Positions 4,501 through 25,450 of a DNA stretch of 64,000 nucleotides are shown one piece after another (position 1 is the stretch's first letter; each line of letters begins with the position of its first letter). The translations under genes and the position numbers were made by a program. The DNA lies in assembly GCF_019703835.1 (NCBI RefSeq), contig NZ_AP023055.1, forward strand, positions 1,674,001 to 1,738,000. Direction: 5' to 3'. The DNA comes from Thaumasiovibrio subtropicus (GTDB lineage: Bacteria; Pseudomonadota; Gammaproteobacteria; Enterobacterales; Vibrionaceae). The notes beneath the pieces were generated by a model. The model worked only from the letters and a program-made list of their open reading frames with translations. It was not told the origin of the DNA and searched no databases.

Positions 4501-5295
4501 TTATTCAACCTTGCCGTAAGGGTACTGTTTACACCCTAACTTGCCTGAAATACGCGCAGCAGCTTGGTGCAATTGATCGATATAGTCGGCACGTTTTTCT
4601 TCACTAAAACGGATCACTGGCAGCGAAACACTCATGCCAGCAACAACGTTGTTAAAACGATCAAGCACAGGAACGGCAATACAGCGTAACCCTTCTTCCT
4701 GCTCTTCATTGTCTTCGCCAACTCCAGTTTCACGGACGGTATTCAACTCTTCAATCAAAGAGTCAATCGTTTCGTGCGTGCGCGTTGTTGACTTTACGAA
4801 CTCTACTGGCGCCAGAATCTGGCGTACTTCTTCTTCTGGGCGCTCTGCCAACAACACTTTACCAATTGCCGTACTGTAAAGTGGATTCCGACGGCCAATA
4901 CGAGATTGCATACGTAGGTTGTATTTCGAATCTATCTTGTGGATGTAGATAATGGCATCTTCATCTAAGGCGCCCAAGTGTAAGGCTTCAGAGGTTGCAT
5001 CACCGATTCGACGCATCTCGAAATCAGCTAACTCAACAAGATCAACATACTCAAGCGCATTAGCGCCAACTTCAAACAGTTTCAATGTCAACGAGTAGTT
5101 TTCGCTGTCACCGTCTTGCGAAACAAAACCCAAGGTTTTCATTGTTTGTAGGAAGCGGTAAACCGTACTTTTAGACATCATAAGCCGTTGAGCAAGTTCA
5201 CTAATACCAATATCCTTTTGCTCACTTAATGCCTGCAAGATGCCAAATGTTTTTAATACCGAAGAGACTGACTCCGGCTGTTTTGTGGCTGTCAT
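4501..5295 (-). CDS. kdgR: KdgR, IclR-family repressor of uronate catabolism genes
   Basis: 264 aa, near full-length similarity to E. coli/Dickeya KdgR from memory of that sequence. The N-terminal helix-turn-helix includes MMSKSTVYRFLQTMKTLG (about residues 39-56). The C-terminal effector domain carries IHLGALDED-like LHLGALDEDAIIYIHKID, SRIGRRNPLYSTAIGKVLL and GEDNEEQEEGLRCIAVPV. KdgR represses genes for pectin and other uronate breakdown and is released by 2-keto-3-deoxygluconate (KDG). It is divergent from a sulfatase preceded by an excellent KdgR box, and a second box lies before galE. It is therefore the likely regulator of the carbohydrate genes in this window. Confidence 0.95.
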   Translation of the reverse strand: MTATKQPESVSSVLKTFGILQALSEQKDIGISELAQRLMMSKSTVYRFLQTMKTLGFVSQDGDSENYSLTLKLFEVGANALEYVDLVELADFEMRRIGDATSEALHLGALDEDAIIYIHKIDSKYNLRMQSRIGRRNPLYSTAIGKVLLAERPEEEVRQILAPVEFVKSTTRTHETIDSLIEELNTVRETGVGEDNEEQEEGLRCIAVPVLDRFNNVVAGMSVSLPVIRFSEEKRADYIDQLHQAAARISGKLGCKQYPYGKVE

Positions 5296-5738: not shown

Positions 5739-7208
5739 TTGAAATCATCAACTTCTCAACCTAATGTCATTGTCATCTATGCCGATGATCTCGGTTTTGG
5801 TGACATTGGCTGCTACGGCGCTAATGACATCCCCACTCCGAATTTAGATAAACTTGCCGATGAAGGGATCAAGTTTCACCAAGGTTATGCTCCTGCCGCG
5901 ACCTGCACACCCTCACGCTACAGTTTACTGACGGGAAGCTACCCTTGGCGTAACCCAAATGCCGCAGTACTGCCGGGTGATGCGCCACAGATCATTGCAC
6001 CCGATGCACCAACCCTACCTAAAATGTTGCAATCTCAAGGTTATCGAACCGGCATTGTGGGTAAATGGCACCTGGGCTTAGGGAATGGCGAACTCGATTT
6101 CAATACTGAAATTCAAGGCACGCCCAATGATGTCGGCTTTGATACTTCCTATATCATGGCTGCCACCAATGATCGGGTTCCTTGTGTGTACATCAACAAT
6201 CGGCATGTTGAGAATCTCGATCCTAACGATCCCATCGAAGTCACTTATGAATGGGACAACGCCTTCCCTGACGTACCAACCGGTCGCCATAACCCTGAAC
6301 TCCTCGACATGATGTACGATCACGGCCATGACGGTACCATTATCAATGGCGTAAGCCGTATTGGCCACATGCGCGGCGGTAAGCGTGCTGTATGGGATGA
6401 TGAAACCATGGGGGAGCACTTTGCTGACAAAGCCAAGAGCTTTATCAGTGAGAATGCTGAACAGCCTTTTTTCCTTTACTATGCCTTACATCAACCACAT
6501 GTGCCGCGCATTCCGGCCCCGCAATTTAGAGGTGTCACGCCACATGGGCCACGAGGCGATGTGATAGTGGAAATGGATTGGTGCATTGGGCAAGTACTCG
6601 ATCATCTCGAATCCTTGGGACTTAAAGAAAATACCTTAGTGATCTTCTCTAGCGACAATGGCCCTGTACTCAATGATGGCTACAAAGACCAAGCGATCGA
6701 GAAGAATGGCAATCACCGTATGGCAGGCCCTTTGCGAGGCGGTAAATACAGCTTGTTTGATGGAGGCACCAAAGTCCCCTTCTTGCTGCGCTGGCCCGCA
6801 AATGTACAACCAGGAGAAAGCAACACCATCTTTGGTCATGTCGACCTCTATGCCTCACTCGCCGCCCTCACTGGGGCAACGTTGGCTGAAGACGAAGCAC
6901 CAGATAGCCATAACATGCTGTCAACTCTGACGGATGCACAGCAAACAGGCCGAGAGGAGATTGCCCTCGAAGGAATGCAAGGCGGCAACGTATATCGCTA
7001 CCGTCATTGGGGTTACATCCCACCGCATGACGGCGAAGCTATCTGCTGCTATACCGGCAACGAAAAAGGCAACCTCAATGCGCCACAGCTGTATGACTTA
7101 AGCAAAGATGTCGGACAGCAACATAATTTAGCAGAGCAATACCCCGATGTTGTCGACGAACTGGCTACACGTTTTGCAGCCCATATGCGGTTAGATAAAA
7201 CCCGATAA
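5739..7208 (+). CDS. Cytoplasmic type I sulfatase (Cys-type)
   Basis: 489 aa. The signature CTPSR with Cys56 is the site of formylglycine formation. Metal ligands are suggested by YADDLG (Asp16, Asp17) and SSDNG late in the protein, and GKWHLGLG is the usual conserved block. It removes sulfate from a sugar or other ester. There is no signal peptide, so it should act in the cytoplasm on imported sulfated oligosaccharides. The start is TTG: the upstream ATGs at 5701 and 5709 are quickly stopped, and AAAAGG lies about 8 bases before the TTG. Formylglycine needs a maturase (anSME or FGE), which is not in this window. The exact substrate cannot be read from sequence. Confidence 0.9.
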   Translation: MKSSTSQPNVIVIYADDLGFGDIGCYGANDIPTPNLDKLADEGIKFHQGYAPAATCTPSRYSLLTGSYPWRNPNAAVLPGDAPQIIAPDAPTLPKMLQSQGYRTGIVGKWHLGLGNGELDFNTEIQGTPNDVGFDTSYIMAATNDRVPCVYINNRHVENLDPNDPIEVTYEWDNAFPDVPTGRHNPELLDMMYDHGHDGTIINGVSRIGHMRGGKRAVWDDETMGEHFADKAKSFISENAEQPFFLYYALHQPHVPRIPAPQFRGVTPHGPRGDVIVEMDWCIGQVLDHLESLGLKENTLVIFSSDNGPVLNDGYKDQAIEKNGNHRMAGPLRGGKYSLFDGGTKVPFLLRWPANVQPGESNTIFGHVDLYASLAALTGATLAEDEAPDSHNMLSTLTDAQQTGREEIALEGMQGGNVYRYRHWGYIPPHDGEAICCYTGNEKGNLNAPQLYDLSKDVGQQHNLAEQYPDVVDELATRFAAHMRLDKTR

Positions 7209-10307: not shown

Positions 10308-12056
10308 CTAGGCCGGTACCCGACCTGCTCGAATAATGGTCCGTAACACGGATTTTCCTTTCCGTATTTGGCCGCTTGCGGAAGGGACCGAACACTGAGT
10401 AAAGCGTAAATTACTATTGGGTGCACAAGGCAGCGGCGCGCAACGACCACCATCTTCAATCTCAAGTTCACTCCACACTGTCGCGCCACCAATACGGCAG
10501 GTGTTATCTTTGATCGCGTTAGGATCGGTTAAGCACGAAACCCAACTGTCGACAGCGTATCCAGTGGCGACAAAATGAAGATCAAAATCACTGTTAATCT
10601 CGTGCTCTCGGACTTCGCCATCGAGAGAGAAGCGCTGTCGCGTCGTCACGTGACAGCCTGCAAAAGGTTGCCACACCGTTTCTAGCCAGCCGCCGGACCA
10701 GCGACGATCAATGAGATCGCTTCGGCTAAACCATTGCTTAGTTTCTGGGTGCTGAAACGCCAACAAGTTATCACCGACAAACCCCTGCTCTAACCACTGT
10801 GTGCTTTCAACACAGAATCCGTGATCACTGCTGTAGGCAAATTTCAGATACTTATCCGCACTATGGCGCAGCTCTGCACTGCCCATGCCGCCCGTCAGCA
10901 TATACACCCCGCGATCGCGCTTGATCACTTGATGCTGATGCTGGAAAACCATGATCGATTTTTCTTTATCGTCGGTGGGGTTTAAACGCCAAAAAGGGTG
11001 ATCTGGACCAAGACGCAAGACTGAAAATGCCTTCAATGCCAGAAGCGGCGACATCGCGCTGGTGTAAAACTCCGAAACATTCAGGTTCGGATAGCTAAAA
11101 CCACATTGCAAACCGAAACGGTCATCCCATATCGGTTGTTGAGACCACCACTGCATGTTGCGTTGCCAATGGCCACGATAGTGCTGGATCTTCTGCGGCA
11201 GATCCGTCATCTCTGCCAACTGCCCCCATAGTGCCGCGGCCGCGAAACGATAGTTTAATGAGCGACCGTAAACAAGCTGCGCACCATCATCTGCAAACCA
11301 AAATCGATAGCGTTCAGCAAACTCAAACGCACGTTGTAGATAGAGCTGAGCCCGTTGCGGATCGCGGCGACGACACCAACGCACATACGTCAGCGCGTAA
11401 AAATGGAAAGCAAATGGGTTGTAGTAATCATAGACTTCGCGAGGCCCGTCATGATACCAACCCTCTGAGGTATATGAACGCTCCACCAACGCAAAATCAT
11501 ACTCCAGCACCGAGCGATCAATCGGCTCTATTGCGCCGCCCACCAGCTCCAACGCCGTGAGAATCAGAATACGGAAAAAGCGCCAATTATTTTCTGGGAG
11601 TTTGAGCGTGGCGACACTGCCAAGCCAGTTAAGTAGGTTAGCCTGCGATTCCGGTGATAGAGCGTCAAAGAAAATCTCCCTCGCATCAATCATCGCCACG
11701 GCAATCGACGTCATCTCGACAACGCGCTGATCAAAATCAATCGGTACACCCCAATAGTTTGGATGCACAGGGTTAACGCCGTTTTCAATGCGTTCACGTA
11801 ACGCTGCACAGGCGTCAGGGAGAGAGTCAGCCGCAGGGACAACCGCCCACATTAATCGCGCCACCCCTTCGAGGTTCTGAGCACTCGCATCAAAATGCGC
11901 CGCCGGGGTCAGGTTGGCCGTTTGCTGACAATGGTCATTAACGAAATGTGCCGCGATTTCTTTCAAAGGTGTTAGGGTCGTTTCAAAATCAGCAAACAAG
12001 GTTTGCTCTATCTCTGGATGTAATCGTGCGATCAAATCCGTAATTCGATAAGCCAT
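10308..12056 (-). CDS. DUF2264 protein, probable glycan-processing enzyme
   Basis: 582 aa with the look of DUF2264: a helical N-terminal domain, with conserved blocks such as NYWGVP, LPENNWRFFRIL and YHDGPREVYDYYNPFAFHFY, then a beta-rich C-terminal part. The first part suggests an alpha/alpha toroid as in several glycoside hydrolases and lyases. I recall that some DUF2264 members have been assigned to a CAZy beta-glucuronidase family (GH154), but cannot verify this. No signal peptide, hence cytoplasmic. It is the last gene of the RpiR-ABC arm, 147 bases after the ATPase gene, so it should act on the imported oligosaccharide, perhaps on a uronic acid end. Confidence 0.8.
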   Translation of the reverse strand: MAYRITDLIARLHPEIEQTLFADFETTLTPLKEIAAHFVNDHCQQTANLTPAAHFDASAQNLEGVARLMWAVVPAADSLPDACAALRERIENGVNPVHPNYWGVPIDFDQRVVEMTSIAVAMIDAREIFFDALSPESQANLLNWLGSVATLKLPENNWRFFRILILTALELVGGAIEPIDRSVLEYDFALVERSYTSEGWYHDGPREVYDYYNPFAFHFYALTYVRWCRRRDPQRAQLYLQRAFEFAERYRFWFADDGAQLVYGRSLNYRFAAAALWGQLAEMTDLPQKIQHYRGHWQRNMQWWSQQPIWDDRFGLQCGFSYPNLNVSEFYTSAMSPLLALKAFSVLRLGPDHPFWRLNPTDDKEKSIMVFQHQHQVIKRDRGVYMLTGGMGSAELRHSADKYLKFAYSSDHGFCVESTQWLEQGFVGDNLLAFQHPETKQWFSRSDLIDRRWSGGWLETVWQPFAGCHVTTRQRFSLDGEVREHEINSDFDLHFVATGYAVDSWVSCLTDPNAIKDNTCRIGGATVWSELEIEDGGRCAPLPCAPNSNLRFTQCSVPSASGQIRKGKSVLRTIIRAGRVPA

Positions 12057-12203: not shown

Positions 12204-13871
12204 TTAAGCCACGGGTGGTAGCTCGACTTTAGGTACGGCGTTAATCAAGGTTTGCGTGTAAGGCTGTTGTGGATTCTCAATCACTTCCTCAATGCTGCCT
12301 TGCTCGACAATTTGGCCGCGTTTAAGCACAACCACGCGATCACAGAAGTACTTCACTGTCGCAATATCGTGTGTGATCAACACAAATGCCGTGCCGTAAC
12401 GATTTTGGAACTCAATCAGCAGATCCAATACCTGTGCACGCAACGACACATCCAATGCCGCTGTCGCTTCATCCGCAATCACCAGCTTAGGGCGAGTAAT
12501 CAAAGCACGCGCAATCACAATACGTTGACGCTGACCACCAGAGAAGGCATGCGGGTAACGACTGGAGAAACTCGCAGGGAGCCCCACCCATTCCATCATG
12601 TCACGCACGCGTTGACGTCGCTCATCATTGCTAAGCTCAGTGCGTAGTTTGGTTAGCGGCTCTTCGATAATCTCAAAGACCGTCATGCGCGGGTTGAGCG
12701 ATGACCATGGGTCTTGGAAGATCAAACGCAGATCGGCAAACAGCGGGTCACGTGGCGGGCGCTTATAATCACTCAACTCCAATGCGGTTTCGCCATCCGT
12801 ATATTTAATGTTGCCTGATGTTGCTGGTGACATACCCAGTACGGCGCGGCCAAGGGTACTCTTACCTGACCCCGATTCACCGACAATGCCCAAGGATTCG
12901 CCGGGATGCAGCGTCAAGCTGACATCATCGACCGCTTTCAAGATCTCTTTTTTCTTCCAGAAGTCTTTGCGCACATCAAACTGTTTATTGACGTTTTGCA
13001 CATCTAAGATAGGAGTGCCCGCAGTGCCGTAATCAAACGGTTTTTTGTACTGAGAACTGCGTTCTAGCCGCTGCGTCGCTTCCATTAATTTGATGGTGTA
13101 CGGATGTTCTGGCGCTTCGAAAATTTGCCGCACATCGCCCTTTTCAACGACGATACCTTTTTCCATAACGACAACACGATCCGAGATTTGTGCCACCACC
13201 CCTAAGTCATGGGTGATGAACAAAATTGCCATCCCGGTTTCTTCTTGTAACTTGGCAAACAGACGTAAGATCTCAGCCTGTGTGGTCACATCCAATGCGG
13301 TGGTCGGCTCATCCGCGATCAAAATGTCAGGACGGCTCGCCATCGCCATCGCAATCACCACCCGCTGGCGTTGGCCGCCAGACAGTTCAAACGAGTATTT
13401 ATTGATGAAGTTTTTCGGATCCGGCAACATCACCTGCTCTAAGAGCTCAATGGCGCGCTGATGTGCGGTCTCCTTATTGAGGCCACTGTCGACCAGCAAC
13501 AAGGTTTCTTTAATCTGGTCGCCCACCGTATGCACTGGGCTTAACGCACTCATCGGCTCTTGCGACACCAACGAGAAGTTAAAACAACGGATTTTGCGCA
13601 TCTCAATACTGTTCGGGGCATAATTCGTGATGTCCACTTTGCTGCCGTCGAGATGGAGCATGATCTCACCCGAGTCGATTCGACCAGGCTTATTGAGGAT
13701 TTGCAATATTGCATTCGAAGTCACGGATTTACCCGAACCCGATTCACCAATGACTGACAATGTTTCACCACGGCGAATATCAAAACTCACGTCTTTCACC
13801 GCATGGAATGTTTCCATGGTCGTCGGAAAACTCACGTTTAGATTTTTAACTTCCAGAATCACATCAGACAT
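12204..13871 (-). CDS. Oligosaccharide/peptide-type ABC importer, fused double ATPase
   Basis: 555 aa with two ATPase domains of the Dpp/Opp type: Walker A GESGSGKS twice (about residues 42-49 and 312-319), signatures LSGGQRQR and FSGGQRQR, and Walker B DILIADEP and LVIADEA. It powers the permease pair encoded just upstream. Its ATG overlaps the stop of the upstream permease by one base (TAATG), a sign of translational coupling. Family 5 transporters with this architecture carry peptides but also chitobiose and other oligosaccharides in vibrios; the surrounding enzymes favour a sugar. Confidence 0.93.
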   Translation of the reverse strand: MSDVILEVKNLNVSFPTTMETFHAVKDVSFDIRRGETLSVIGESGSGKSVTSNAILQILNKPGRIDSGEIMLHLDGSKVDITNYAPNSIEMRKIRCFNFSLVSQEPMSALSPVHTVGDQIKETLLLVDSGLNKETAHQRAIELLEQVMLPDPKNFINKYSFELSGGQRQRVVIAMAMASRPDILIADEPTTALDVTTQAEILRLFAKLQEETGMAILFITHDLGVVAQISDRVVVMEKGIVVEKGDVRQIFEAPEHPYTIKLMEATQRLERSSQYKKPFDYGTAGTPILDVQNVNKQFDVRKDFWKKKEILKAVDDVSLTLHPGESLGIVGESGSGKSTLGRAVLGMSPATSGNIKYTDGETALELSDYKRPPRDPLFADLRLIFQDPWSSLNPRMTVFEIIEEPLTKLRTELSNDERRQRVRDMMEWVGLPASFSSRYPHAFSGGQRQRIVIARALITRPKLVIADEATAALDVSLRAQVLDLLIEFQNRYGTAFVLITHDIATVKYFCDRVVVLKRGQIVEQGSIEEVIENPQQPYTQTLINAVPKVELPPVA

Positions 13872-15028
13872 TATTTTGCTCCTTGCTCGTGGTATGGGTC
13901 ACAAGCATCGCGTAGACCATCGCCGGCAAAGTTCATTGCCAGAATCACCACTACAACCGCCGCTGCAGGGATCAGTAACCAAATTGCTTCTGCTAGCGCG
14001 CGAATGTTCTGCGCATCTTGGAGCAAGACACCCCAGCTAACTAACGGCGCTTGCAAACCAAGCCCAAGGAAACTCAACGCGGTTTCACCCAGAATCATCC
14101 CTGGAACAGCCAGCGTCACCACCGCAATAATGTGGCTAAGGAAGTTAGGCACCATATAGCGACGGACGATTTCTGCTGAGCTGTTGCCATCTAGCCAAGC
14201 CGCAGCAATGTACTCTTCCGAACGCAATGAAATAAAGCGGCTGCGAACGACACGCGCCATATCAGGCCACGACACAAGGCCAAGAATAATGGTCACAAGG
14301 AAGTAGCGGGTCAATGCACTCCATTCGCCTGGCAGTGAAGCCGTCAATGCCATCCACAATGGTAACGTTGGAATCGACTTTACAAACTCAATCGTGCGCT
14401 GAATGAAGTTGTCCACTCGGCCACCCATGTAGCCAGAGATACCGCCAATCACAATACCGATGATCAGCGTGAAGAAGACCCCCATCAATCCCACAGACAA
14501 TGAGATACGCCCACCATGAATTAAGCGCGAGAAGACATCACGCCCCATCCGATCTGAACCTAAGATGAAAAAAGGCTTCTTCGGATCATGCGGTGCAAGA
14601 AACTTACGCTCCATCGGGATGAAACCCATCAACTCATAAGGTTCGGTTTTGCCAAAGAAAGAGAAATAAGCGCGCTCTGAATCGTCTTCTTCATAGTGAC
14701 GCTGCAATGTGCGGCGATCTGTTACCACCTTATACATTTCAAGGTGCGGCGCCCACTGCCAACCCTCATCGGTTTTCTCAAATAGATGTACCGACTGTGG
14801 TGGCGAGTAGGTATGACGACGCCAGTTTTGGGTTGCATCAAAGGGAGCAAAAAACTCAGCAAAGATAGCAACAAAATAGACGATAGCTAAGAACCAGATA
14901 CTGTACCAAGCGAGTTTGTGTCGACGCAGTTTAATCCCAATTAGCTGCCATTGCGTCGCTTCGGAAATATCGAGTGGGGTCTTCTCTCGCTTCGCGAAAG
15001 GAATAAGTGATAGTGCTCTCGATAACAT
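13871..15028 (-). CDS. ABC importer permease, DppC/OppC type
   Basis: 385 aa. After an N-terminal cytoplasmic stretch and one transmembrane helix (about residues 40-62) comes a long periplasmic insert (about 70-165), then the permease core with five helices. It contains the block GSDRMGRDVFSRLIHGGRIS, typical of DppC/OppC proteins, and the ATPase-coupling EAA loop near EEYIAAAWLDGNSSAEIVRR. The periplasmic insert makes it longer than DppC (about 300 aa) and resembles YejE-like permeases. It is coupled to the ATPase gene by a one-base overlap. Confidence 0.93.
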   Translation of the reverse strand: MLSRALSLIPFAKREKTPLDISEATQWQLIGIKLRRHKLAWYSIWFLAIVYFVAIFAEFFAPFDATQNWRRHTYSPPQSVHLFEKTDEGWQWAPHLEMYKVVTDRRTLQRHYEEDDSERAYFSFFGKTEPYELMGFIPMERKFLAPHDPKKPFFILGSDRMGRDVFSRLIHGGRISLSVGLMGVFFTLIIGIVIGGISGYMGGRVDNFIQRTIEFVKSIPTLPLWMALTASLPGEWSALTRYFLVTIILGLVSWPDMARVVRSRFISLRSEEYIAAAWLDGNSSAEIVRRYMVPNFLSHIIAVVTLAVPGMILGETALSFLGLGLQAPLVSWGVLLQDAQNIRALAEAIWLLIPAAAVVVVILAMNFAGDGLRDACDPYHEQGAK

Positions 15029-15031
15029 AGC

Positions 15032-16039
15032 TTAAAACTCCTTGGCAACGCCAACGCGCACGCGTGGGTCGACCCAGTACAACAATAAATCTGAAATCAA
15101 GGTACCGATGATAGTCAGGCCAGACATAATCAATAGAATGTCTCCGGCAACATACATATCTTGAGTACGTAATGAGTTAAGTAGCAAAGGACCGAGTGTC
15201 GGTACGTTCATCACTTGCGAGACAATCACATCAGCACCTAGCAGTGCAGGCAGCATCCAACCAATGGTACTGACCATAGGTAATAGCGCGACCCTCACTG
15301 GGTACTTCAGAATCAAGCGACCTTCACTCATCCCTTTTGCTCTCGCCGTCTTGACGTAAGGCTTAGTCAGCTCATCAAGTAAGTTAGCGCGCATGATGCG
15401 AATGATGCCCGCCATGCCACCAGTACCTACCACAAGCACATAGATCCAACCGCGAGAGACACCGTCCCAAAACTTATCCCAAGACATGGGTTCATTAAGG
15501 AACTGATCCGAAAAGAGACCGGATACCACAGTGTCGAAGTGAAAATAACCAATGAGTAGCGCGACAATTGCTAACACAAAGTTAGGTGTCGCCATACCAA
15601 TAAAACCAAAGACAGTTGCGACGTAATCTCCCCACGAGTATTGACGCAATGCAGAAAAGATACCGATTGGAATTGCAATCAGGTGGCTAAAGATGAAGAC
15701 CGCGCCAGCCAGTGCCATTGTAGGTCCGATTCGGGGTTGAATGGTCTCCCATACAGGCTGGTTGTCTGTCAGAGACATCCCAAGGTCACCTTGTAACAAG
15801 CCGCCGACCCAACTCAGGTAGCGCTCATACAAAGGCTTATCAAGACCATACATTTCGCGGAGTGAGAAGATCAGCTCTGGGTCTACGGTTTGACCCATGG
15901 ATTGCATTTCAGCAATACGAGACGTCGCGAAATCACCTGGGGGAAGGTCAATAACGGCAAAGACAACAACCGATACTGCCAGCAACGTTATCAACATCGA
16001 TAACAAGCGTTTTCCCGCAAAGAGAAAAAAACTGTTCAT
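15032..16039 (-). CDS. ABC importer permease, DppB/OppB type
   Basis: 335 aa with six predicted transmembrane helices. The N-terminal block (LITLLAVSVVVFAVIDLPPGD) and the EAA loop YVKTARAKGMSEGRLILKYP are those of DppB/OppB permeases. It forms the pore with the second permease, whose gene begins 3 bases downstream. A hairpin at 16056-16076 separates it from the binding-protein gene. Confidence 0.94.
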   Translation of the reverse strand: MNSFFLFAGKRLLSMLITLLAVSVVVFAVIDLPPGDFATSRIAEMQSMGQTVDPELIFSLREMYGLDKPLYERYLSWVGGLLQGDLGMSLTDNQPVWETIQPRIGPTMALAGAVFIFSHLIAIPIGIFSALRQYSWGDYVATVFGFIGMATPNFVLAIVALLIGYFHFDTVVSGLFSDQFLNEPMSWDKFWDGVSRGWIYVLVVGTGGMAGIIRIMRANLLDELTKPYVKTARAKGMSEGRLILKYPVRVALLPMVSTIGWMLPALLGADVIVSQVMNVPTLGPLLLNSLRTQDMYVAGDILLIMSGLTIIGTLISDLLLYWVDPRVRVGVAKEF

Positions 16040-16086: not shown

Positions 16087-17985
16087 TTACTGTTCTTTCC
16101 AAAGCTGCCCAAGGCGCATTGGTCCCGGAGTTGGGAAGGTGTAGGACTGAGGCATGTCGTGAGGCACGTTGCGGATCTTGTTATTGATCACAACACCCTC
16201 TTCCAACGATGACACAGTACCAATCACATAGAATTGCTCTTTAGCAATTGCCATGATTTCTTTCATTAAGCGCTGCTGCTCTGCTTGGTCAGCGGTGTTA
16301 CGCACTTTCTCAAACAGTTCAATTTGGCGCTTAACGTGCGCAGGTGGCTCAACCGCATACTCGTGGTTCGGATCTTGTGCCCAGTTGTAGTAGCCCAGAC
16401 CCCAAGTCGACTCAGGGCTATACGGTAGGTAGCTGCGCGCCTCATCAATGATGCCCACACCGCCATCACCTGGCATTGGGATCAGTTCAAAATCATTGGT
16501 GATACGCAGAGAAGTGAGGTAGTTAGTCTCGACAACACGGATATCAAGGAAAACGCCGATCTCTTTCCATTGGTTTTTCACCAGTTCAAGCGAGTCAGAC
16601 ACGCCACCCAGATCAGCAGTGGTGGTCAACGCTTCTATACGAAGACGACGGCCGTCTTTCATCAAGCGATAACCCGCGCTATCGCGCTTCTCTAGACCTA
16701 GACCATCAAGTAGCTTGTTCGCCGTTTCGACATCGTAGTCGGTGTATTGGCTCGCCATCTCTTCATCGTAAAAAGCGGAAGATTCAATCGGCGCTGCTTG
16801 GTAAGGTTCAACAACACCTGAATATACCGTCTCGCTGATGTCTTCACGGTCGATACCATGTGACAGTGCAACGCGGAAGTCTTTCTGCGCAAACAGTTCC
16901 GCTTTCACTTTGTCACTTGTGGTTTGGTTCAGACCCAATACCATGCTGTTCATCAGTGTGGTAGGACGGAAGTGATAGGTGTAACCACCCTTTTCTTCAT
17001 TGGCAATCAACATTGGACGGTGTGATGGGCCACCAATATGACGCGCTTGGAAATCCGTCTCACCTGCCGCAGCACGCAACACCATCTCTTCACTGTCTTC
17101 GCTGAAACGCCATCTCACGCTGTCAAGATAAGGAAGCTGATTCCCTTCTGTATCCACTTGCCAGTAGAACGGGTTACGCTCAAATTCTGCGATAGGCGTA
17201 TTTGGCCCTGGTGGGGTCTTCACTTTCCACGCCGTCAATACAGGACGATCGACATTGGTGTAGTGCTCAATGAAGTAAGCAGAACGACACTTGGTCATTG
17301 AATATTGACGCCATGTAGAGAAGCCCGCCGCCTCTGCTTCAGCATCTAGATTCTTGTTGTATTGCGGGTAAAACTGAGAACAGTAGTGTTTTGGATAGGT
17401 CGCGAAGCTTGCGCCATCAATCGTAGCGAGCTGGCGAATGAACAAACCGTTTGGTTCTTTAAGTTCAATCTTGACTGTGTGGGCATCAACCGCTGTCGCT
17501 TTCGCTGCGTCTGGGCTGCTAATAAATAGCGGACGGTTACCTGCGTGGTCAGGATCACCAATGACTTCATTGATATAGAATACAATATCGTCAGCGGTGA
17601 ACGGATGACCATCAGACCATTTCACACCTTTACGTAGCGAAAGGGTAAATACAGTATTCTCTTCGTTTGCGGTAAAGCCAGTCGCTAAGTTAGGCACAAC
17701 CTCATTATATTTCTCATTGAAATTGAATAAGTTGTCGTATGCAATAATACGGATGCGGTGTACGTTATCAGGTGCGCGACCCAACAGGTTTAATGTACCA
17801 CCATATTTACCTACTGAATCAAATGGGGTAACAACTAAAGGCTCTTGTGGTAAGCGGTCACTCACTTCTGGAAGCTGTCCGGCTTCTACTAGCTTGGTGA
17901 GTTGAGGCGCTTCACTATATTCAGCAGCTAACGCAGGTGTAGCAAGGCACATCGCGATACTGAGCGCGACTACATTCTTTTTCAT
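16087..17985 (-). CDS. Family 5 solute-binding protein of the ABC importer
   Basis: 632 aa with a clear signal peptide (MKKNVVALSIAMCLATPALA, cleavage about residue 20). The body is of the SBP_bac_5 type, including LSLRKGVKWSDGHPFTADD, the family's most recognisable block, and RVALSHGIDRE. It is about 100 aa longer than DppA/OppA, like members that bind oligosaccharides. In the periplasm it would deliver ligand to the permeases encoded downstream. It is the first structural gene after rpiR. The ligand is not readable from sequence; the sulfatase, GH88 and GH112 context suggests an acidic galactosyl-HexNAc oligosaccharide. Confidence 0.92.
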   Translation of the reverse strand: MKKNVVALSIAMCLATPALAAEYSEAPQLTKLVEAGQLPEVSDRLPQEPLVVTPFDSVGKYGGTLNLLGRAPDNVHRIRIIAYDNLFNFNEKYNEVVPNLATGFTANEENTVFTLSLRKGVKWSDGHPFTADDIVFYINEVIGDPDHAGNRPLFISSPDAAKATAVDAHTVKIELKEPNGLFIRQLATIDGASFATYPKHYCSQFYPQYNKNLDAEAEAAGFSTWRQYSMTKCRSAYFIEHYTNVDRPVLTAWKVKTPPGPNTPIAEFERNPFYWQVDTEGNQLPYLDSVRWRFSEDSEEMVLRAAAGETDFQARHIGGPSHRPMLIANEEKGGYTYHFRPTTLMNSMVLGLNQTTSDKVKAELFAQKDFRVALSHGIDREDISETVYSGVVEPYQAAPIESSAFYDEEMASQYTDYDVETANKLLDGLGLEKRDSAGYRLMKDGRRLRIEALTTTADLGGVSDSLELVKNQWKEIGVFLDIRVVETNYLTSLRITNDFELIPMPGDGGVGIIDEARSYLPYSPESTWGLGYYNWAQDPNHEYAVEPPAHVKRQIELFEKVRNTADQAEQQRLMKEIMAIAKEQFYVIGTVSSLEEGVVINNKIRNVPHDMPQSYTFPTPGPMRLGQLWKEQ

Positions 17986-18169: not shown

Positions 18170-19048
18170 TTATTGACCCTTAATATATTGATTGACCGCC
18201 TCTTGACCATTAGCAATGGCTTGATGATCTTTCAAAAGTGCATTGAGTTTGTAAAACAACACATCAAACGTAATCATTTGCATCACTTGCGATGTCACCA
18301 CACCCATTTGACTATGATCTTCGTTGTATCTGAAGGGGAGGTGTAAATCGACCAGCTGGCCGACGGTATCGCGCCCAAAACGGGTGAGGCCAATGGAAAC
18401 CGCACCTTTACGGCGACTATTTTGCAACGCACAGATGACTTCTTTTGTCTCACCGCGCGCCGAAACGGCGATCACCACATCTCCTTCTGCAACCAAGTTG
18501 CTGCATGCCAGTTGCAAATGGGCATCGGGAGTAAACTGAACTGGAAGATTGAGGCGCAACAGTTTATTGAAAATGTCATTGGCGACCACCGCAGACGAGC
18601 CGACACCGAGTAAAACAATTTTGTTGGCTCGAGTGATAACTTCCGCTGCTTGCTCGACCACTTCCGCCTCTAATAGCTTCAGTGAACTCTCGATATGCTG
18701 GCTAAACAGCTGCGCGGACTTCGCAATCATGGATTGCGTATCATCTTCCGCTTCCAATCCTTGAAAGATGGGCATCGCAGGTTGTTGGCGAAGCTCGGCT
18801 AATAACGCCACTTTGAAATCAGCGTAACCGTTGAAACCTAAGCGTTGTGCAAATCGAACCACCGTCGCATTACTCATCTGACACATGCTGCCTAACTTCA
18901 CAGCGCTATAGGGCGCGATATCATAGTTAAGATCACCCAAGGTCTGCGCTAAGCGTTGATCTTTGCCGACGCCTGCATATCGCAATGCGTCTATCTTGGT
19001 CATCAAATCTCTCATCACAGTCCTTTCGTCCTTTTCAGCACCTTCCAC
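18170..19048 (-). CDS. RpiR/MurR-family regulator with SIS domain
   Basis: 292 aa. The N-terminal RpiR helix-turn-helix (about residues 20-85) includes MCQMSNATVVRFAQRLGF. The SIS sugar-phosphate-binding domain (about 125-260) includes KIVLLGVGSSAVVANDIFNKL. Such proteins sense sugar phosphates and control the adjacent catabolic genes. It lies upstream of, and in line with, the binding-protein gene and is divergent from galE. A perfect inverted repeat in the divergent region (19240-19258) is a good candidate for its operator. The upstream extension MEGAEKDERTV makes the exact start uncertain; the ATG at 19015 (MRDLMTKIDAL) is an alternative. Confidence 0.9.
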   Translation of the reverse strand: MEGAEKDERTVMRDLMTKIDALRYAGVGKDQRLAQTLGDLNYDIAPYSAVKLGSMCQMSNATVVRFAQRLGFNGYADFKVALLAELRQQPAMPIFQGLEAEDDTQSMIAKSAQLFSQHIESSLKLLEAEVVEQAAEVITRANKIVLLGVGSSAVVANDIFNKLLRLNLPVQFTPDAHLQLACSNLVAEGDVVIAVSARGETKEVICALQNSRRKGAVSIGLTRFGRDTVGQLVDLHLPFRYNEDHSQMGVVTSQVMQMITFDVLFYKLNALLKDHQAIANGQEAVNQYIKGQ

Positions 19049-19368: not shown

Positions 19369-19592
19369 CTTAAAATATGAAACAACTGGCATTGCTATAT
19401 GGGTGTTGTTCGTAAAGCTAAACCTCTGATTTTTAAAAGAACCATATGCAACTCGCCTTTTATTTCTGTTGACGTAGTGATGATAGAAAGCAAGCGATAA
19501 AAATGATTCATACATTTTTAGTTAATTATCTAGGCGACGATTTTCACGGCAAATTCGATTCGCCATATATGAGCAGACAATCTGAGATCAAA

Positions 19593-20612
19593 ATGAAAAT
19601 TCTAGTGACAGGCGGTGCAGGTTATATAGGCACACACACTTGTTTAGCACTGATTGAACAAGGTTTTACTCCGATTGTAGTGGATAACTTTTCCAACAGT
19701 TCCCCACTCGCCATAAAGCGTGTCGAACAGCTCAGCAACACATCGATCCCCGTCATCAAGGCGGATATCTGTGATCGTGCTGCCTTAGATACCATCTTCC
19801 AAGAGCATGATATTCAAGCTGTCATGCACTTCGCTGGATTAAAGGCGGTAGGGGAATCCGTTGCGATTCCACTCAGCTACTATCACAACAACATTCATGG
19901 CAGCCTAAACGTGCTGCAAGCGATGGAAGCTGCCAATGTACAGCAGTTTATTTTCAGTTCATCGGCTACGGTTTACGGTGACCCCGCCTCTGTCCCGATC
20001 AAGGAAAGTGATCCGACCGGAAATACCACTAACCCTTATGGTTACAGTAAATATGTGGTTGAAAGCTTGCTCGAAGATATCTGTCGCGCCAACCCTGCAC
20101 TCAGTGCAACGCGCCTGCGGTATTTCAATCCTGTCGGCGCACATATTTCCGGCCAAATTGGCGAGGATCCCAGCGGCATTCCGAACAACCTGATGCCATT
20201 CATCACGCAAGTTGCAATAGGTCGCCGTGAAAAGTTAGCGATTTTTGGCGATGACTACCCCACACCGGACGGTACGGGGGTTCGAGACTATATCCATGTG
20301 CAAGATCTCGCTGACGGCCACGTCTCCGCATTGCGCCATGGCCTCGAATATCCAGGGCTACACACGTTCAATTTGGGCACTGGCCAAGGTATCAGCGTCA
20401 AAGAGATGCACCGTGCGATGGAAGAAGCGGTCGGTAAATGCATTCCAGCGGAGATCCAGCCACGCCGCCCCGGCGACATCGCGCAGTGTTATGCCGACCC
20501 GAGTAAAGCAGAAAGTGAATTAAATTGGCGCGCCACCCGCAGTGTCAACGATATGGCAACCGACAGCTGGCGTTGGCAATCACAGAATCCAAACGGCTAC
20601 AACAATGCGTAA
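19593..20612 (+). CDS. galE: UDP-glucose 4-epimerase GalE
   Basis: 339 aa. NAD-binding motif GGAGYIG (about residues 7-13), SSSATVYG with the active-site Ser, and YGYSK with catalytic Tyr and Lys are all present, as is the GalE block FNPVGAH. It interconverts UDP-galactose and UDP-glucose. The ATG at 19593 (MKILVTGG) is chosen because it gives the standard 338-339 aa length; the longer open frame from 19503 adds residues unlike GalE. It leads an operon with galT, GH88 and GH112. Confidence 0.96.
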   Translation: MKILVTGGAGYIGTHTCLALIEQGFTPIVVDNFSNSSPLAIKRVEQLSNTSIPVIKADICDRAALDTIFQEHDIQAVMHFAGLKAVGESVAIPLSYYHNNIHGSLNVLQAMEAANVQQFIFSSSATVYGDPASVPIKESDPTGNTTNPYGYSKYVVESLLEDICRANPALSATRLRYFNPVGAHISGQIGEDPSGIPNNLMPFITQVAIGRREKLAIFGDDYPTPDGTGVRDYIHVQDLADGHVSALRHGLEYPGLHTFNLGTGQGISVKEMHRAMEEAVGKCIPAEIQPRRPGDIAQCYADPSKAESELNWRATRSVNDMATDSWRWQSQNPNGYNNA

Positions 20613-20691
20613 CAACAACCACTAATACGCAAGCAATGACCCTAACGGCAACATTAATAAAAATATTAATTATCAATAAGTAAGTACAACC

Positions 20692-21735
20692 ATGACGAGT
20701 CTCTTTAATCCAACTGATCACCCGCACCGTCGCTTCAATCCGCTTACCGGAGAGTGGGTGTTGGTCTCTCCGCACCGCGCTAAGAGACCGTGGCAAGGTC
20801 AACAAGAAACCCCCGCGCTTGATGAAAAACCAAGCTACGATAAAACCTGCTATCTTTGCCCTGGCAACGAGCGTATTACTGGTGATGTCAATCCTAAATA
20901 TACTGGTACGTTTGTCTTTACCAATGACTTTGCCGCGTTGCAGTCAGATACACCAGATTGCCCAGACAGTTCTGACCACTTGTTTCAGCAACAAACCGCT
21001 CGCGGGGAAGCACGTGTTATCTGCTTTTCTCCCGACCATAGCAAAACTCTGCCCGAGCTTTCTGAGCAAGAACTTGCCGCGGTGGTAGAGACATGGCAAG
21101 AACAAACCCAAGAACTCGGCGCTCACTACCCATGGGTGCAAGTGTTTGAGAACAAGGGCGAAACCATGGGGTGCTCAATGCCGCACCCTCATGGCCAAGT
21201 TTGGGCCAATAGCTTTATTCCTTCTCATGTTGATAAGAAAGACCACCGGTTATTTGATTACTGGGACACACACAACGCGAACTTGTTAGTCGACTACGCC
21301 CAGCGTGAAATGGCGGAAAAAAGCCGCATTGTTGTCGAAACCGAACATTGGTTAGCGGTTGTGCCTTACTGGGCTGCGTGGCCATTTGAAACCATGCTGT
21401 TACCCAAAGCCGTTTGTCAGCGCTTAACAGAACTAAGTGCAGCGCAAAAAGCGGACCTCCCTGCCGCCATCAAGCAGCTGACGACCAAATACGACAACTT
21501 GTTTAACTGCAGTTTCCCCTATTCCATGGGCTGGCATGGCGCGCCTTTTACGGAAGAAGATCAACCACACTGGCAAGTCCACGCGCTGTTTTATCCTCCT
21601 CTGTTACGCTCGGCAACGGTACGAAAGTTCATGGTGGGGTATGAAATGTTGGGCGAAAGCCAGCGTGACTTAACACCTGAGCAAGCTGCACAACGCTTAC
21701 GTGATGCTGGCGATGTACACTACCGCCAACGATAA
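20692..21735 (+). CDS. galT: Galactose-1-phosphate uridylyltransferase GalT
   Basis: 347 aa, the normal GalT length. The catalytic motif HPHGQVW (about residue 164-170) contains the His that carries the uridylyl group, and [12 protein letters not shown] is the zinc-binding region near residue 52. It converts galactose-1-phosphate plus UDP-glucose into UDP-galactose and glucose-1-phosphate. No galactokinase gene follows. In this operon the Gal-1-P can come straight from the GH112 phosphorylase, which makes galK unnecessary for this route. Confidence 0.96.
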
Positions 21736-21827
21736 GCCAACGACGGCGAAAACCACTCATCGATACAGTCGATGAATGTTGCAATTTACTAACGACTTTT
21801 TGGGTTTCACCCTAAGCTAGGAATATT

Positions 21828-22991
21828 ATGTCTATTACACTGCCACCCTTACCTGACACATTGAACGCTCGCCGCGTTGTCGACCACCTGCCAACGGTGA
21901 TTGAAAGCATTCGCCGAAACATCGCAAATATCGGTGACCGCAACCCACGTATCGGCCGTGCGGATAACAGCTGGGACTACTGCGACCAATATGATTGGGT
22001 CTCTTCTTTCTGGACAGGTGAACTGTGGCTAAGTTACCAGATCACGGGCGAATCTATTTTTAAAAATAGCGCCAACCTACGCAAACGTTACTTTGCCAAC
22101 ATGCTACTTGATCCCTTCTGGCTTGATCACGACTTGGGTTTCCAATACAGCTTAAGCTGTGTTGCTGGCCACAAGCTAACGGGTGATGAAGAATACAAAA
22201 TGATGGCAATCCGCGCTGCAGATCACCTGATTCACCGTTTTCGAAAGATTGGTGGCTACATTGTTGCTTGGAATGACACCCACCCATTAGGGCCTGAAAT
22301 CACTCAGGGTAAGTCAATCATTGACTCGCTACAAAATACCGCTCTACTCTTTTGGGCATCGAAAGTGACCGGCTCGCCAGTCTATGCTGAAGCCGCTACC
22401 CGTCACTGTCGCACCATGGCGAAACACATTGTACGTGACGATTATTCGACCTATCACTCGTTCAACTTCCACCCTGTAACACAAGAGCCAATCAAAGGGG
22501 AAACATTCCAAGGCTATGCAGACGATTCCTGCTGGGCTCGCGGCCAATCTTGGGCTATTCATGGGTTTGCTCAAACCTACCTCTACACGGGGGATGAAAC
22601 CTTCTTAGAGACAGCCAAACGCCTTGCTAAATACGCCGTAGAGCAAATTACCCCTGATGGTGTACCGGTTTGGGATTACTCGCTACCCGAGCATGAAACA
22701 CAATATAAAGACAGTTCTGCTGGTGCGATTACCGCCGCAGGTCTCTTGCTCATTTCGCAATGTATTGATGATGTCACTGAAGCGCGTCAATACCGTGACT
22801 GGGGACTCTTCTTACTGCAGGGCCTAATGAAACAGTGCGACCTTACTTTAGATCCGACCGCACATGGCCTACTTGCTAATGGTGCGTCATTTGTGAAAGT
22901 TGGCTTGTGCGACAACATGCTGCCATACGGCGACTACTACTACCTCGAAGCGCTAATGCGCGCTAACGGTTACACCGAGTTCTTCTGGTAA
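21828..22991 (+). CDS. GH88 unsaturated glucuronyl hydrolase
   Basis: 387 aa, the length of GH88 enzymes, with alpha/alpha-barrel type helices. The two acidic residues of the family are placed as expected: Asp102 in HDLGF and Asp166 in IIDSLQN, matching Asp88 and Asp149 of Bacillus UGL. The enzyme hydrates and releases 4,5-unsaturated uronic acid from the end of oligosaccharides made by polysaccharide lyases, for example from chondroitin or hyaluronan. No signal peptide, so it acts in the cytoplasm on imported material. Its product feeds the KDG route and would give the KdgR inducer. A GH105 member is less likely because of the HDLGF motif. Confidence 0.9.
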   Translation: MSITLPPLPDTLNARRVVDHLPTVIESIRRNIANIGDRNPRIGRADNSWDYCDQYDWVSSFWTGELWLSYQITGESIFKNSANLRKRYFANMLLDPFWLDHDLGFQYSLSCVAGHKLTGDEEYKMMAIRAADHLIHRFRKIGGYIVAWNDTHPLGPEITQGKSIIDSLQNTALLFWASKVTGSPVYAEAATRHCRTMAKHIVRDDYSTYHSFNFHPVTQEPIKGETFQGYADDSCWARGQSWAIHGFAQTYLYTGDETFLETAKRLAKYAVEQITPDGVPVWDYSLPEHETQYKDSSAGAITAAGLLLISQCIDDVTEARQYRDWGLFLLQGLMKQCDLTLDPTAHGLLANGASFVKVGLCDNMLPYGDYYYLEALMRANGYTEFFW

Positions 22992-23017
22992 TTCTTATTC
23001 CGATCACTATTTATTTG

Positions 23018-23038
23018 CGCGCTCCCTTCGAGCGCGCG
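23018..23038 (+). other. GC-rich hairpin between GH88 and GH112 genes
   Basis: GCGCGCTC pairs with GAGCGCGC around a CCTTC loop, just before the AAGGAG ribosome site of the next gene. There is no T run. It may modulate message stability or the relative dose of the phosphorylase. Confidence 0.5.
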
Positions 23039-23049
23039 AAGGAGCCAAC

Positions 23050-25221
23050 ATGCAAAAAAAAGGACATATGACCCTGCCGGTAGAAGTCGGTCAAGAAGAG
23101 GTCGTGCTCGATTTATACAAACGCTGGCAAGCGGATGCGCTACGCGATAGCGATGGTACCAGTATGCCAGACTCGTTAGCCCAGCAAGATTGCGATATTT
23201 ACTCCGTCATGTGTTTAGTACGTGCTGACCAAGATTTTGCCAATGCACACCCTGAATATCTCCACCGTAAATACTTAATGTCATTCCCTGTCACAGCAAT
23301 GGGCACGAGTGTCACGCTATCGCCACTGAAGGGCTACAGCGCGGATAAATATGAACTCGATGATGACAGTGACCCACACACATGGTGGGAAGTGCGCAAT
23401 CGCACCACCAATACGGTGATTGACAAAGCAGAGTGGCACTTCGACCCAGAGTCCTCCACGGTTGAAGTGTGCAATACCACGCCGTACCATGAATACACGG
23501 TCACCTTTATGGCTCGTCAAGTCTGGGATAGCGTATCGATGTATAACGCCCTCACCAATGACTGGAAAGGACCACGCATCAAGAGTCTTGACCCGTATCA
23601 CCCGGCCTGCCGTGAGCACCTCATCAAGCATTTTGCGCACTGGCTAGAAACACACCCGAACACCTCGGTTGTGCGTTTCACAACATTCGCATTCCTTTTT
23701 GTGATTGACACAGGTGACAAAAACCAAGACATCTATCGGGATTGGACAGGGTATGGCGAGACCGTTAGCCCACGCGCGCTACAAGACTTTGAAGCCGAGT
23801 ATGGTTACGCCTTAACTCCTGAAGATTTTGTTGATTCGGGTTATTACAACGGCACCTATAAAGTTCCATCAAAACGCTACCAAGACTGGATGACCTTCGT
23901 GCAGCGTTTTGTCGTGGATTTTGCCGCAGAGCTCGTCAAAATGGCTCATGACGCGGGTAAGAAAACCGCCATGTTCCAAGGTGACCACTGGATTGGCACC
24001 GAACCTTTCCTAAAGAGCTATCAAGAGATTGGCCTCGATATCAACATTGGTGCCGTAGAAGATGGTGTCGCCCTGCGCCGTTTGACTGATTCGGGTGGCG
24101 ACCAGATCCGCGAAGCACGTTTCTACCCCTACTTCTTCCCAGATGTTTTCCAAGCAGGCAACGACCCTGTGATTGAATCCATGTCTAACTGGGTGAAAAT
24201 TCGTCGCGCTATGTTGCAAAAGCCATTAGATCGAATTGGGTATGGCGGCTACCTTTCGCTTGCCAATCAGTTCCCACATTTCATTGATCATGTCACTGAG
24301 ATTTCCAATGAGTTTGGTAAATACCTCACCCAAACCCAGCGCACAGAATCTCAGAAACTGCCTGGCAAAATTGCCGTATTGAATGCCTGGGGCAAATCAC
24401 GTAGTTGGCTACAAAATCAAGCCCGTGACCAACGCTTCTATGTACCGCCACGTCCGGACGTCATGGAATTTGTTGGCAACAACCTGCTTGAATGCCTTGC
24501 TGGTCTGCCATTTGACGTCGAGTTTATCAGCTTTGATGATGTACGCGAAAACGGTATCAGTGACGATATCAAGGTGATCATCAACACAGGTGATGCGAAC
24601 TCGGCGTGGAGTGGAGGTGAGCACTGGGGTGATGGCGATATACTGGTTGCACTGAGACAATTTGTCGCCAACGGCGGGGGGTTACTCGGGGTGACGGATC
24701 CTTCTGCACACCAGCAGAATGGGCGTTTCTTCCAACTTGGCGATATCCTAGGCCTAGAAAAAGAGACCGCACTCACCATGGGTCGCGTTGCGATGCCTGT
24801 AAGTCTTGATACAGAGCACTACCTATCGAAAGCTCTCTCAGGACGCGAAGACTTCGGCAACAATAGCTATGTCTACCCTCAAGCCGACGACTTAAGTGTG
24901 ATTCACGCAGCTGGCCAGCACCTTGCACTTACCGCTCGAGAATATGGCAATGGGCGTGCAAGCTATCTTGCGAACCTGCCTTATTCACAAGAAAATGCGC
25001 GAATACTCCAGCATATCTTGATTTGGTTGAGCCAAGAAGAAACCAAGCAACACTGTTGGTTATCTGATAACCCCTATGTTGACGTGGCTTATTATCCAAA
25101 AACCGATAACGTCGCGATAGTGAACAGCAGTGACGAAAAGCAAGAAGTGACACTGCTAAACAATAAATTTGAGACGGTGTCTGTGACATTGAGTCCATTT
25201 GAATGGACATGGTTGAACTAA
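23050..25221 (+). CDS. GH112 galacto-N-biose/lacto-N-biose phosphorylase
   Basis: 723 aa, close in length to the family (about 720-750). The N-terminal TIM-barrel carries RFTTFAFLFV and MFQGDHWIGTEPF; Asp312 in GDHW corresponds to the catalytic acid Asp313 known from the Bifidobacterium enzyme. A glutamine-amidotransferase-like domain and a C-terminal beta domain follow. GH112 enzymes cleave beta-1,3-galactosyl-HexNAc (or, in a subgroup, beta-1,4-galactosyl-rhamnose) with phosphate, giving Gal-1-P. A Vibrio vulnificus member is a characterised lacto-N-biose phosphorylase. No signal peptide. AAGGAG 6 bases before ATG supports this start. Acceptor preference cannot be read here. Confidence 0.92.
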   Translation: MQKKGHMTLPVEVGQEEVVLDLYKRWQADALRDSDGTSMPDSLAQQDCDIYSVMCLVRADQDFANAHPEYLHRKYLMSFPVTAMGTSVTLSPLKGYSADKYELDDDSDPHTWWEVRNRTTNTVIDKAEWHFDPESSTVEVCNTTPYHEYTVTFMARQVWDSVSMYNALTNDWKGPRIKSLDPYHPACREHLIKHFAHWLETHPNTSVVRFTTFAFLFVIDTGDKNQDIYRDWTGYGETVSPRALQDFEAEYGYALTPEDFVDSGYYNGTYKVPSKRYQDWMTFVQRFVVDFAAELVKMAHDAGKKTAMFQGDHWIGTEPFLKSYQEIGLDINIGAVEDGVALRRLTDSGGDQIREARFYPYFFPDVFQAGNDPVIESMSNWVKIRRAMLQKPLDRIGYGGYLSLANQFPHFIDHVTEISNEFGKYLTQTQRTESQKLPGKIAVLNAWGKSRSWLQNQARDQRFYVPPRPDVMEFVGNNLLECLAGLPFDVEFISFDDVRENGISDDIKVIINTGDANSAWSGGEHWGDGDILVALRQFVANGGGLLGVTDPSAHQQNGRFFQLGDILGLEKETALTMGRVAMPVSLDTEHYLSKALSGREDFGNNSYVYPQADDLSVIHAAGQHLALTAREYGNGRASYLANLPYSQENARILQHILIWLSQEETKQHCWLSDNPYVDVAYYPKTDNVAIVNSSDEKQEVTLLNNKFETVSVTLSPFEWTWLN

Positions 25222-25419: not shown

Positions 25420-25450
25420 GAACCCCGCTTTTTAAGCGGGGTTCTTTTTT
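25420..25450 (+). terminator. Terminator inside the left IS end
   Basis: GAACCCCGCTT pairs with AAGCGGGGTTC around TTT and is followed by T6. It would stop transcripts coming from the GH112 operon before they reach the transposase region. Confidence 0.85.

Follow-up and report, generated by a model that had tools for sequence, protein, structure and literature searches.

The galE, galT, GH88 and GH112 genes of the marine bacterium Thaumasiovibrio subtropicus probably make up the intracellular end of a locus of chondroitin/glycosaminoglycan type, in which the galactose 1-phosphate (Gal-1-P) produced by the GH112 phosphorylase would be handled by a dedicated GalT and GalE without any kinase. 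They lie in a stretch of 64,000 nucleotides (contig 2, bases 1674001-1738000), here called the window, from a 100% complete Vibrionaceae genome of 5.56 Mb in three contigs. A preliminary description of this DNA had reported a four-gene operon galE-galT-GH88-GH112 lacking galK, which we confirmed, each gene lying where it had been placed (window coordinates):

19593..20612, plus strand: galE, UDP-glucose 4-epimerase of the GH112-locus type (TIGR01179, 434 bits, cut-off 262; motif GDIAQCYA)
20692..21735, plus strand: galT, galactose-1-phosphate uridylyltransferase, GH112-locus paralog (TIGR00209, 608 bits, cut-off 102)
21828..22991, plus strand: GH88 unsaturated glucuronyl/chondroitin disaccharide hydrolase, cytoplasmic (2e-72 to 1vd5, 9e-59 to 2zzr, 3e-58 to 3wux)
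23050..25221, plus strand: GH112 beta-1,3-galactosyl-N-acetylhexosamine phosphorylase (TIGR02336, 1172 bits, cut-off 560; 2e-172 to 3wfz/2zus)
25420..25444, plus strand: intrinsic-terminator-like hairpin closing the operon (perfect 11-bp stem with 7 GC pairs, T-run)

The galE open reading frame (ORF) opens at 19503, and its conserved start, MKILVTGG, is at 19593. GH88 matches Pfam PF07470 weakly (40 bits), the assignment being firm against the solved unsaturated glucuronyl/chondroitin-disaccharide hydrolases. The four genes follow each other head to tail with intergenic gaps of 58-92 bp, no plus-strand terminator-like site is listed from galE to GH112, and the set reads as a single operon. No galK was found in the window by tblastn.

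The GH112 protein has the three-domain architecture PF09508, PF17385 and PF17386. Its motifs GDxWIGTEP, VRFTTF, YFFPD and WDxVxMYN align to 3wfz and vary little or not at all across 41 homologs; the alignment also shows that the catalytic acid, which corresponds to Asp313 in B. longum, is conserved together with the surrounding motifs, whose catalytic and subsite roles are in part presumed. The protein is 78% identical to the copy in another genome (G325), which is very probably VV2_1091 of V. vulnificus, an enzyme that reportedly prefers lacto-N-biose to galacto-N-biose. VV2_1091 is a characterized GH112 lacto-N-biose phosphorylase, acting on Gal-1-P and N-acetylglucosamine (GlcNAc) (PMC8950772). 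With this activity reported for the ortholog, the window protein is predicted to be a phosphate-dependent phosphorylase of Gal-beta-1,3-linked N-acetylhexosamine (HexNAc). L-rhamnose as acceptor, left as an option in the preliminary description, was rejected in view of the HexNAc equivalog match and the 78% identity to the V. vulnificus enzyme. In planctomycetes, a Planctomycetales relative (51%; L042 4654-12169) lies 3' of a GH101 endo-alpha-N-acetylgalactosaminidase, the classical Gal-GalNAc route (GalNAc, N-acetylgalactosamine), and of a sodium symporter; relatives at 68% adjoin GH123-like enzymes (beta-GalNAcases). The plasmid collection yielded a single GH112 match, a distant one whose record carries no gene annotation.

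Neither PF10509 nor TIGR00131, models of galactokinase that both give hits in control genomes, matches anywhere in the complete genome, and TIGR00131 finds none in the only further genome of this genus. At a distance of 0.99 Mb lies a second galE-galT pair (contig 2:705604-707175), likewise without galK, and a third galE stands alone on contig 1, where sugar-nucleotide genes are plentiful. The complete galETK operon that had been predicted elsewhere as a sign that this one is dedicated is thus absent here, although the search did return the second pair; a separate complete operon is present in relatives (G325; galETKM of V. vulnificus, PMC3091676). The second pair is preceded by an MFS protein and a NagC-like ROK regulator (contig 2:704027-707700). 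This MFS protein belongs to the GlpT/UhpT/PgtP/UhpC organophosphate antiporter family; as a speculation, uptake of Gal-1-P would remove the need for a kinase there too.

Across 330 Vibrionaceae genomes, GH112 occurs in 32 and galK in 237, and comparison of the two genome lists gives 26 of the 32 GH112-positive genomes with galK. Even so, no galK was detected by tblastn in any GH112 locus read. The four galK loci inspected (L141-L144), all away from the GH112 locus, carry galT-galK, with galE directly before galT in three of them. On the large chromosome of G325, galE-galT-galK is followed by an ORF of galM size; galE, galT, GH88 and GH112 are on the small chromosome. In a maximum-likelihood tree of GalT, the GH112-locus copies, including that of the window, fall on one side of a 100/99 branch, with the galK-operon GalT and the second GalT of this genome on the other; in the GalE tree, GH112-locus copies (again with the window's) split from galK-operon copies at 95/95, both trees calling for caution given the long branches of the window copies and of the second pair. 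Since the GalT clade of the GH112 loci is separate from the galK-operon GalT, galE and galT appear dedicated to GH112, and judging from the sequences they look like a set of single origin. This supports the earlier proposal that GH112 supplies Gal-1-P to its own GalT and GalE with no kinase needed.

Three other ideas were discarded. A loss of galK tied to GH112 is not seen, galK being absent from 6 of 32 GH112-positive genomes versus 87 of 298 others. The Cys at the GalE pocket position (Y299 of E. coli) fails as a marker of UDP-HexNAc use, since all GalE copies examined carry it. A GalT motif marking GalNAc-1-P use was rejected too, there being no locus-specific signature except a Met in the window copy.

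On the glycosaminoglycan side, the locus is identified as such by GH88, the divergent importer, the dehydratase and the sulfatase. Its remaining features are:

4501..5295, minus strand: IclR-family regulator at the locus edge (PF01614; 81% to the IclR beside a related GH112 locus, L029 271-1059)
5739..7208, plus strand: cytoplasmic S1_15-like sulfatase, GalNAc-6-O-sulfatase-like (PF00884; 75% to a related-locus sulfatase; 1e-156 to 6s20, a GalNAc-6-O-sulfatase)
10308..12056, minus strand: DUF2264 (former GH154), candidate uronate dehydratase (PF10022; 9e-17 to the glucuronic acid dehydratase 9o4u)
12204..16039, minus strand: permeases and fused ATPase of an ATP-binding cassette (ABC) importer, OppB, OppC and OppDF (Pfam; orthologs 3' of GH112 in Vibrio/Enterovibrio loci)
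16087..17985, minus strand: periplasmic solute-binding protein of the importer, family 5 (PF00496; best solved relative SPH1118, 2e-114)
18170..19048, minus strand: divergent RpiR/MurR-family regulator, HTH_6 and SIS (PF01418 and PF01380)

As the sulfatase, DUF2264, the importer and the IclR regulator are all in the window, the locus extends from about 4.5 to 25.4 kb. Orthologs of the importer, DUF2264 and the sulfatase are found in related Vibrio/Enterovibrio GH112 loci. SPH1118, the closest solved relative of the binding protein, binds an acidic polysaccharide (pectin). In Bacteroides caccae, DUF2264 has been shown to act as a glucuronate dehydratase, preparing the saturated ends of chondroitin for GH88 (PMC12269599), and the window copy is a candidate for the same role on saturated glucuronic acid (GlcA) ends. 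Directly behind the GH112 terminator, at 25487-26921, we observed a minus-strand transposase split over two reading frames.

Neighbors were counted within the stretch read in 30 distinct Vibrionaceae GH112 loci. GH88 is present in 29 of them, GalT in 26, a PL8 lyase in 22, SulP in 20, KduD in 18 and GalE in 14, followed by KduI and KDG kinase (13 each), KDPG aldolase (12), two sulfatases (13 each), an anaerobic sulfatase maturase (12), SBP5 (9) and DUF2264 (8). The PL8 enzymes are nearest to chondroitinase AC. One of the two sulfatases is nearest to chondroitin endo-4-O-sulfatase and the other to GalNAc-6-O-sulfatases (a comparison made with the copy in the window). Judged from their N-termini, GH88, GH112, DUF2264, the short PL8 and the two sulfatases have no signal peptide, so the final degradation steps are probably cytoplasmic.

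GH88 orthologs with at least 74% identity were found in 31 genomes, all of them GH112-positive (31 of 32), and in none of the GH112-negative genomes. In the 32nd, G035, GH112 is accompanied by PL8, the importer and a sulfatase, and the GH88 is elsewhere. Loci with a GH88 of about 66% identity and no GH112 contain uronate genes and neither galT nor galE. From this distribution, GH112, GalT and GalE move as a unit with this particular GH88. The Vibrio loci L130-L135, with a 66% GH88, carry a LamB porin, a sodium symporter, a sulfatase and a DUF4955/pectate-lyase-like protein, with no GH112 or galactose genes; they are a different locus type, for a sulfated uronic glycan.

We suggest the following route, in which we infer the operon transcription, the order of steps, the natural galactoside and the kinase used for free GlcNAc. 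Acidic oligosaccharides would be imported by the family-5 ABC importer, the sulfatase would strip sulfate, and GH88 would take off the unsaturated uronate, with the dehydratase assisting at saturated ends. GH112 would then phosphorolyze the exposed beta-galactosyl-HexNAc to alpha-Gal-1-P and HexNAc, and the dedicated GalT and GalE would convert Gal-1-P into UDP-sugars and glucose 1-phosphate. Galactokinase would therefore be dispensable, as would one ATP per galactose, a saving that is established chemistry.

The HexNAc kinase, which the preliminary description placed elsewhere in the genome, is indeed absent from the cluster: no APH-family match (NahK) lies near the locus, and the genome-wide APH matches are all elsewhere. 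We found only a candidate, in a chitobiose-type cluster (contig 1:3156545-3170852; L149 2046-16353) with a family-5 ABC importer, GH9, a BadF kinase, GH20, a GH94 phosphorylase and a phosphohexomutase. This BadF-type kinase may serve the freed GlcNAc, in the manner of Vibrio chitin metabolism; it would fit GlcNAc and not GalNAc. The cluster itself, which is complete, is a second phosphorylase route served by the same importer class.

Several observations weigh against the proposed route. Galactose is not part of the chondroitin and hyaluronan repeats, and the Vibrionaceae loci that were annotated showed neither a lacto-N-biosidase nor an endo-alpha-GalNAcase, which leaves the source of Gal-HexNAc unexplained. 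In four of the 30 related loci, galT is missing from the stretch read. No adjacent PL8 chondroitinase, SulP or KduD was found by homology in the window at 8-36 kb, and the only PL8 lyase of the genome is 0.41 Mb away (contig 2:1283819-1286608). A KduI homolog was not found in this genome despite the presence of GH88 and the uronate dehydratase, so the unsaturated uronate would have to take another isomerase or reductase. The equation of G325 with V. vulnificus CMCP6 is a probable one, drawn in part from matching gene order. As for the sole PL8 lyase, it is chondroitinase-AC-like, has a signal-peptide-like N-terminus and sits beside a TonB receptor, not adjoining other glycosaminoglycan genes.

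The preliminary description had taken the gene set as evidence that phosphorolysis is the physiological route; gene content alone is no proof of this for Gal-HexNAc, and the repeat of chondroitin, the main substrate to be expected, is free of galactose. Either Gal-beta-1,3-HexNAc is part of the glycan that is taken up, or this GH112 clade accepts glycosaminoglycan fragments. The ortholog activity and the conserved catalytic motifs favor the former, and the strict glycosaminoglycan context favors the latter. For the former, core-1 type glycans bearing glucuronate and acidic polymers that contain galactose are both substrates that would be compatible with every gene of the window.

The second option takes its most explicit form if the GH112 clade phosphorolyzes the non-reducing GalNAc exposed by GH88 (GalNAc-beta-1,4-GlcA) to GalNAc-1-P, which GalT and GalE would turn into UDP-GalNAc/UDP-GlcNAc, again without a kinase. 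It would explain why GH112, GalT and GalE are the only amino-sugar-capable genes in complete chondroitin-type loci, and it agrees with the near-obligate GH88-GH112 pairing, the joint absence of GH112 and galT/galE from the loci with ~66% GH88, and the GH123-like beta-GalNAcases beside the 68% planctomycete relatives. We nevertheless consider it unlikely, since both synthesis and cleavage of Gal-beta-1,3-GlcNAc have been reported for the V. vulnificus ortholog (PMC8950772), the residues near the catalytic Asp and the acceptor site match the bifidobacterial Gal-HexNAc enzyme, and the 51% Planctomycetales relative adjoins GH101. The open GalE pocket with its Cys would also suit amino sugars, but being common to all copies it does not discriminate. 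Put more broadly, the GH112 clade of Vibrio glycosaminoglycan loci would be an oligosaccharide phosphorylase freeing GalNAc-1-P, or a different sugar phosphate, from chondroitin trimmed by GH88, with GalT/GalE acting as a kinase-free amino-sugar route; in this form the idea is no likelier.

It is quite improbable that galE and galT feed UDP-Gal/UDP-GalNAc to surface polysaccharides and are co-transcribed with GH88-GH112 incidentally. The GalE and GalT reactions are reversible and the third galE is in a region rich in sugar-nucleotide genes, but GalT accompanies GH112 in 26 of the 30 distinct loci as a lineage apart from galK-operon GalT, and a biosynthetic GalT needs Gal-1-P, for which GH112 is the sole recognizable supplier in this genome. 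The ordinary galactose pathway with galK elsewhere, which the preliminary description had named, together with a lack of other galE/galT, as the case against itself, has almost no probability left and is refuted for recognizable GHMP galactokinases, as two models find no galK, a second galE-galT pair (also lacking galK) and a third galE exist, and nothing in this genome counts for it.

Kinase-free use of Gal-1-P from GH112 is thus retained as our reading, and the earlier interpretation was correct at its core, lacking the glycosaminoglycan context; it is largely the known pathway logic of Bifidobacterium in a new setting. In the lacto-N-biose/galacto-N-biose operon of that genus (GLNBP-NahK-GalT-GalE), the Gal-1-P of GH112 goes straight to GalT and GalE (PMC8106489). 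Both systems share GH112, GalT, GalE, an ABC importer and the lack of a galactokinase in the cluster. However, NahK is present there and not in the window cluster, the window importer is of the Opp/family-5 type, and the bifidobacterial operon is linked to milk/mucin enzymes, whereas that of the window is linked to GH88 and glycosaminoglycan enzymes. The Vibrio chitobiose cluster also combines family-5 ABC import with cytoplasmic phosphorolysis, but its product is GlcNAc-1-P instead of Gal-1-P, and its own kinase and mutase are inside the cluster. The hyaluronan locus of Vibrio alginolyticus is similar in PL8, GH88 and uronate catabolism, differing in its import by a phosphotransferase system, and the text mentions no phosphorylase or galactose genes (PMC8222515).

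The closest system is genomic island XII of V. vulnificus (VV2_1090-VV2_1111; PMC3091676), to which, on the best reading of gene content, the window locus would be orthologous. The order PL8-GH112-GH88-KduD-GalT-GalE-SulP in G325 (L078) equals VV2_1090-VV2_1096 of strain CMCP6 as tabulated in PMC3091676. The GH112 (VV2_1091), GH88, GalT and GalE are orthologous, the ABC importer, DUF2264 (COG4289) and sulfatases are also listed there (PMC3091676), and the island has extra galET without galK, with chondroitinases alongside. The window locus differs in lacking adjacent PL8, SulP and KduD and in having the divergent RpiR regulator, and its genome, unlike the host of the island, is without canonical galK and KduI. 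In 2010, the extra galE/galT of this island, a candidate for a role in virulence, were described as belonging to an unknown pathway: they are paralogs separate from the canonical galETKM operon, another metabolic pathway was suggested for them, and VV2_1091 was a hypothetical protein (PMC3091676). A 2022 review lists VV2_1091 as a lacto-N-biose-type phosphorylase (PMC8950772), as an isolated enzyme whose genomic context is not discussed in the papers found. In the literature covered, mostly outside subscription journals, we found no paper joining the island XII galET with this activity. Joining them gives a concrete, testable pathway, phosphorolysis supplying a dedicated GalT and GalE, and the window locus suggests this role for the extra genes of the island. 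It also raises the question of why a phosphorylase of galactosides should be tied almost obligately to a hydrolase of chondroitin disaccharides; the answer would lie either in an acidic host glycan with galactose that has been overlooked or in a phosphorylase specificity that is new.

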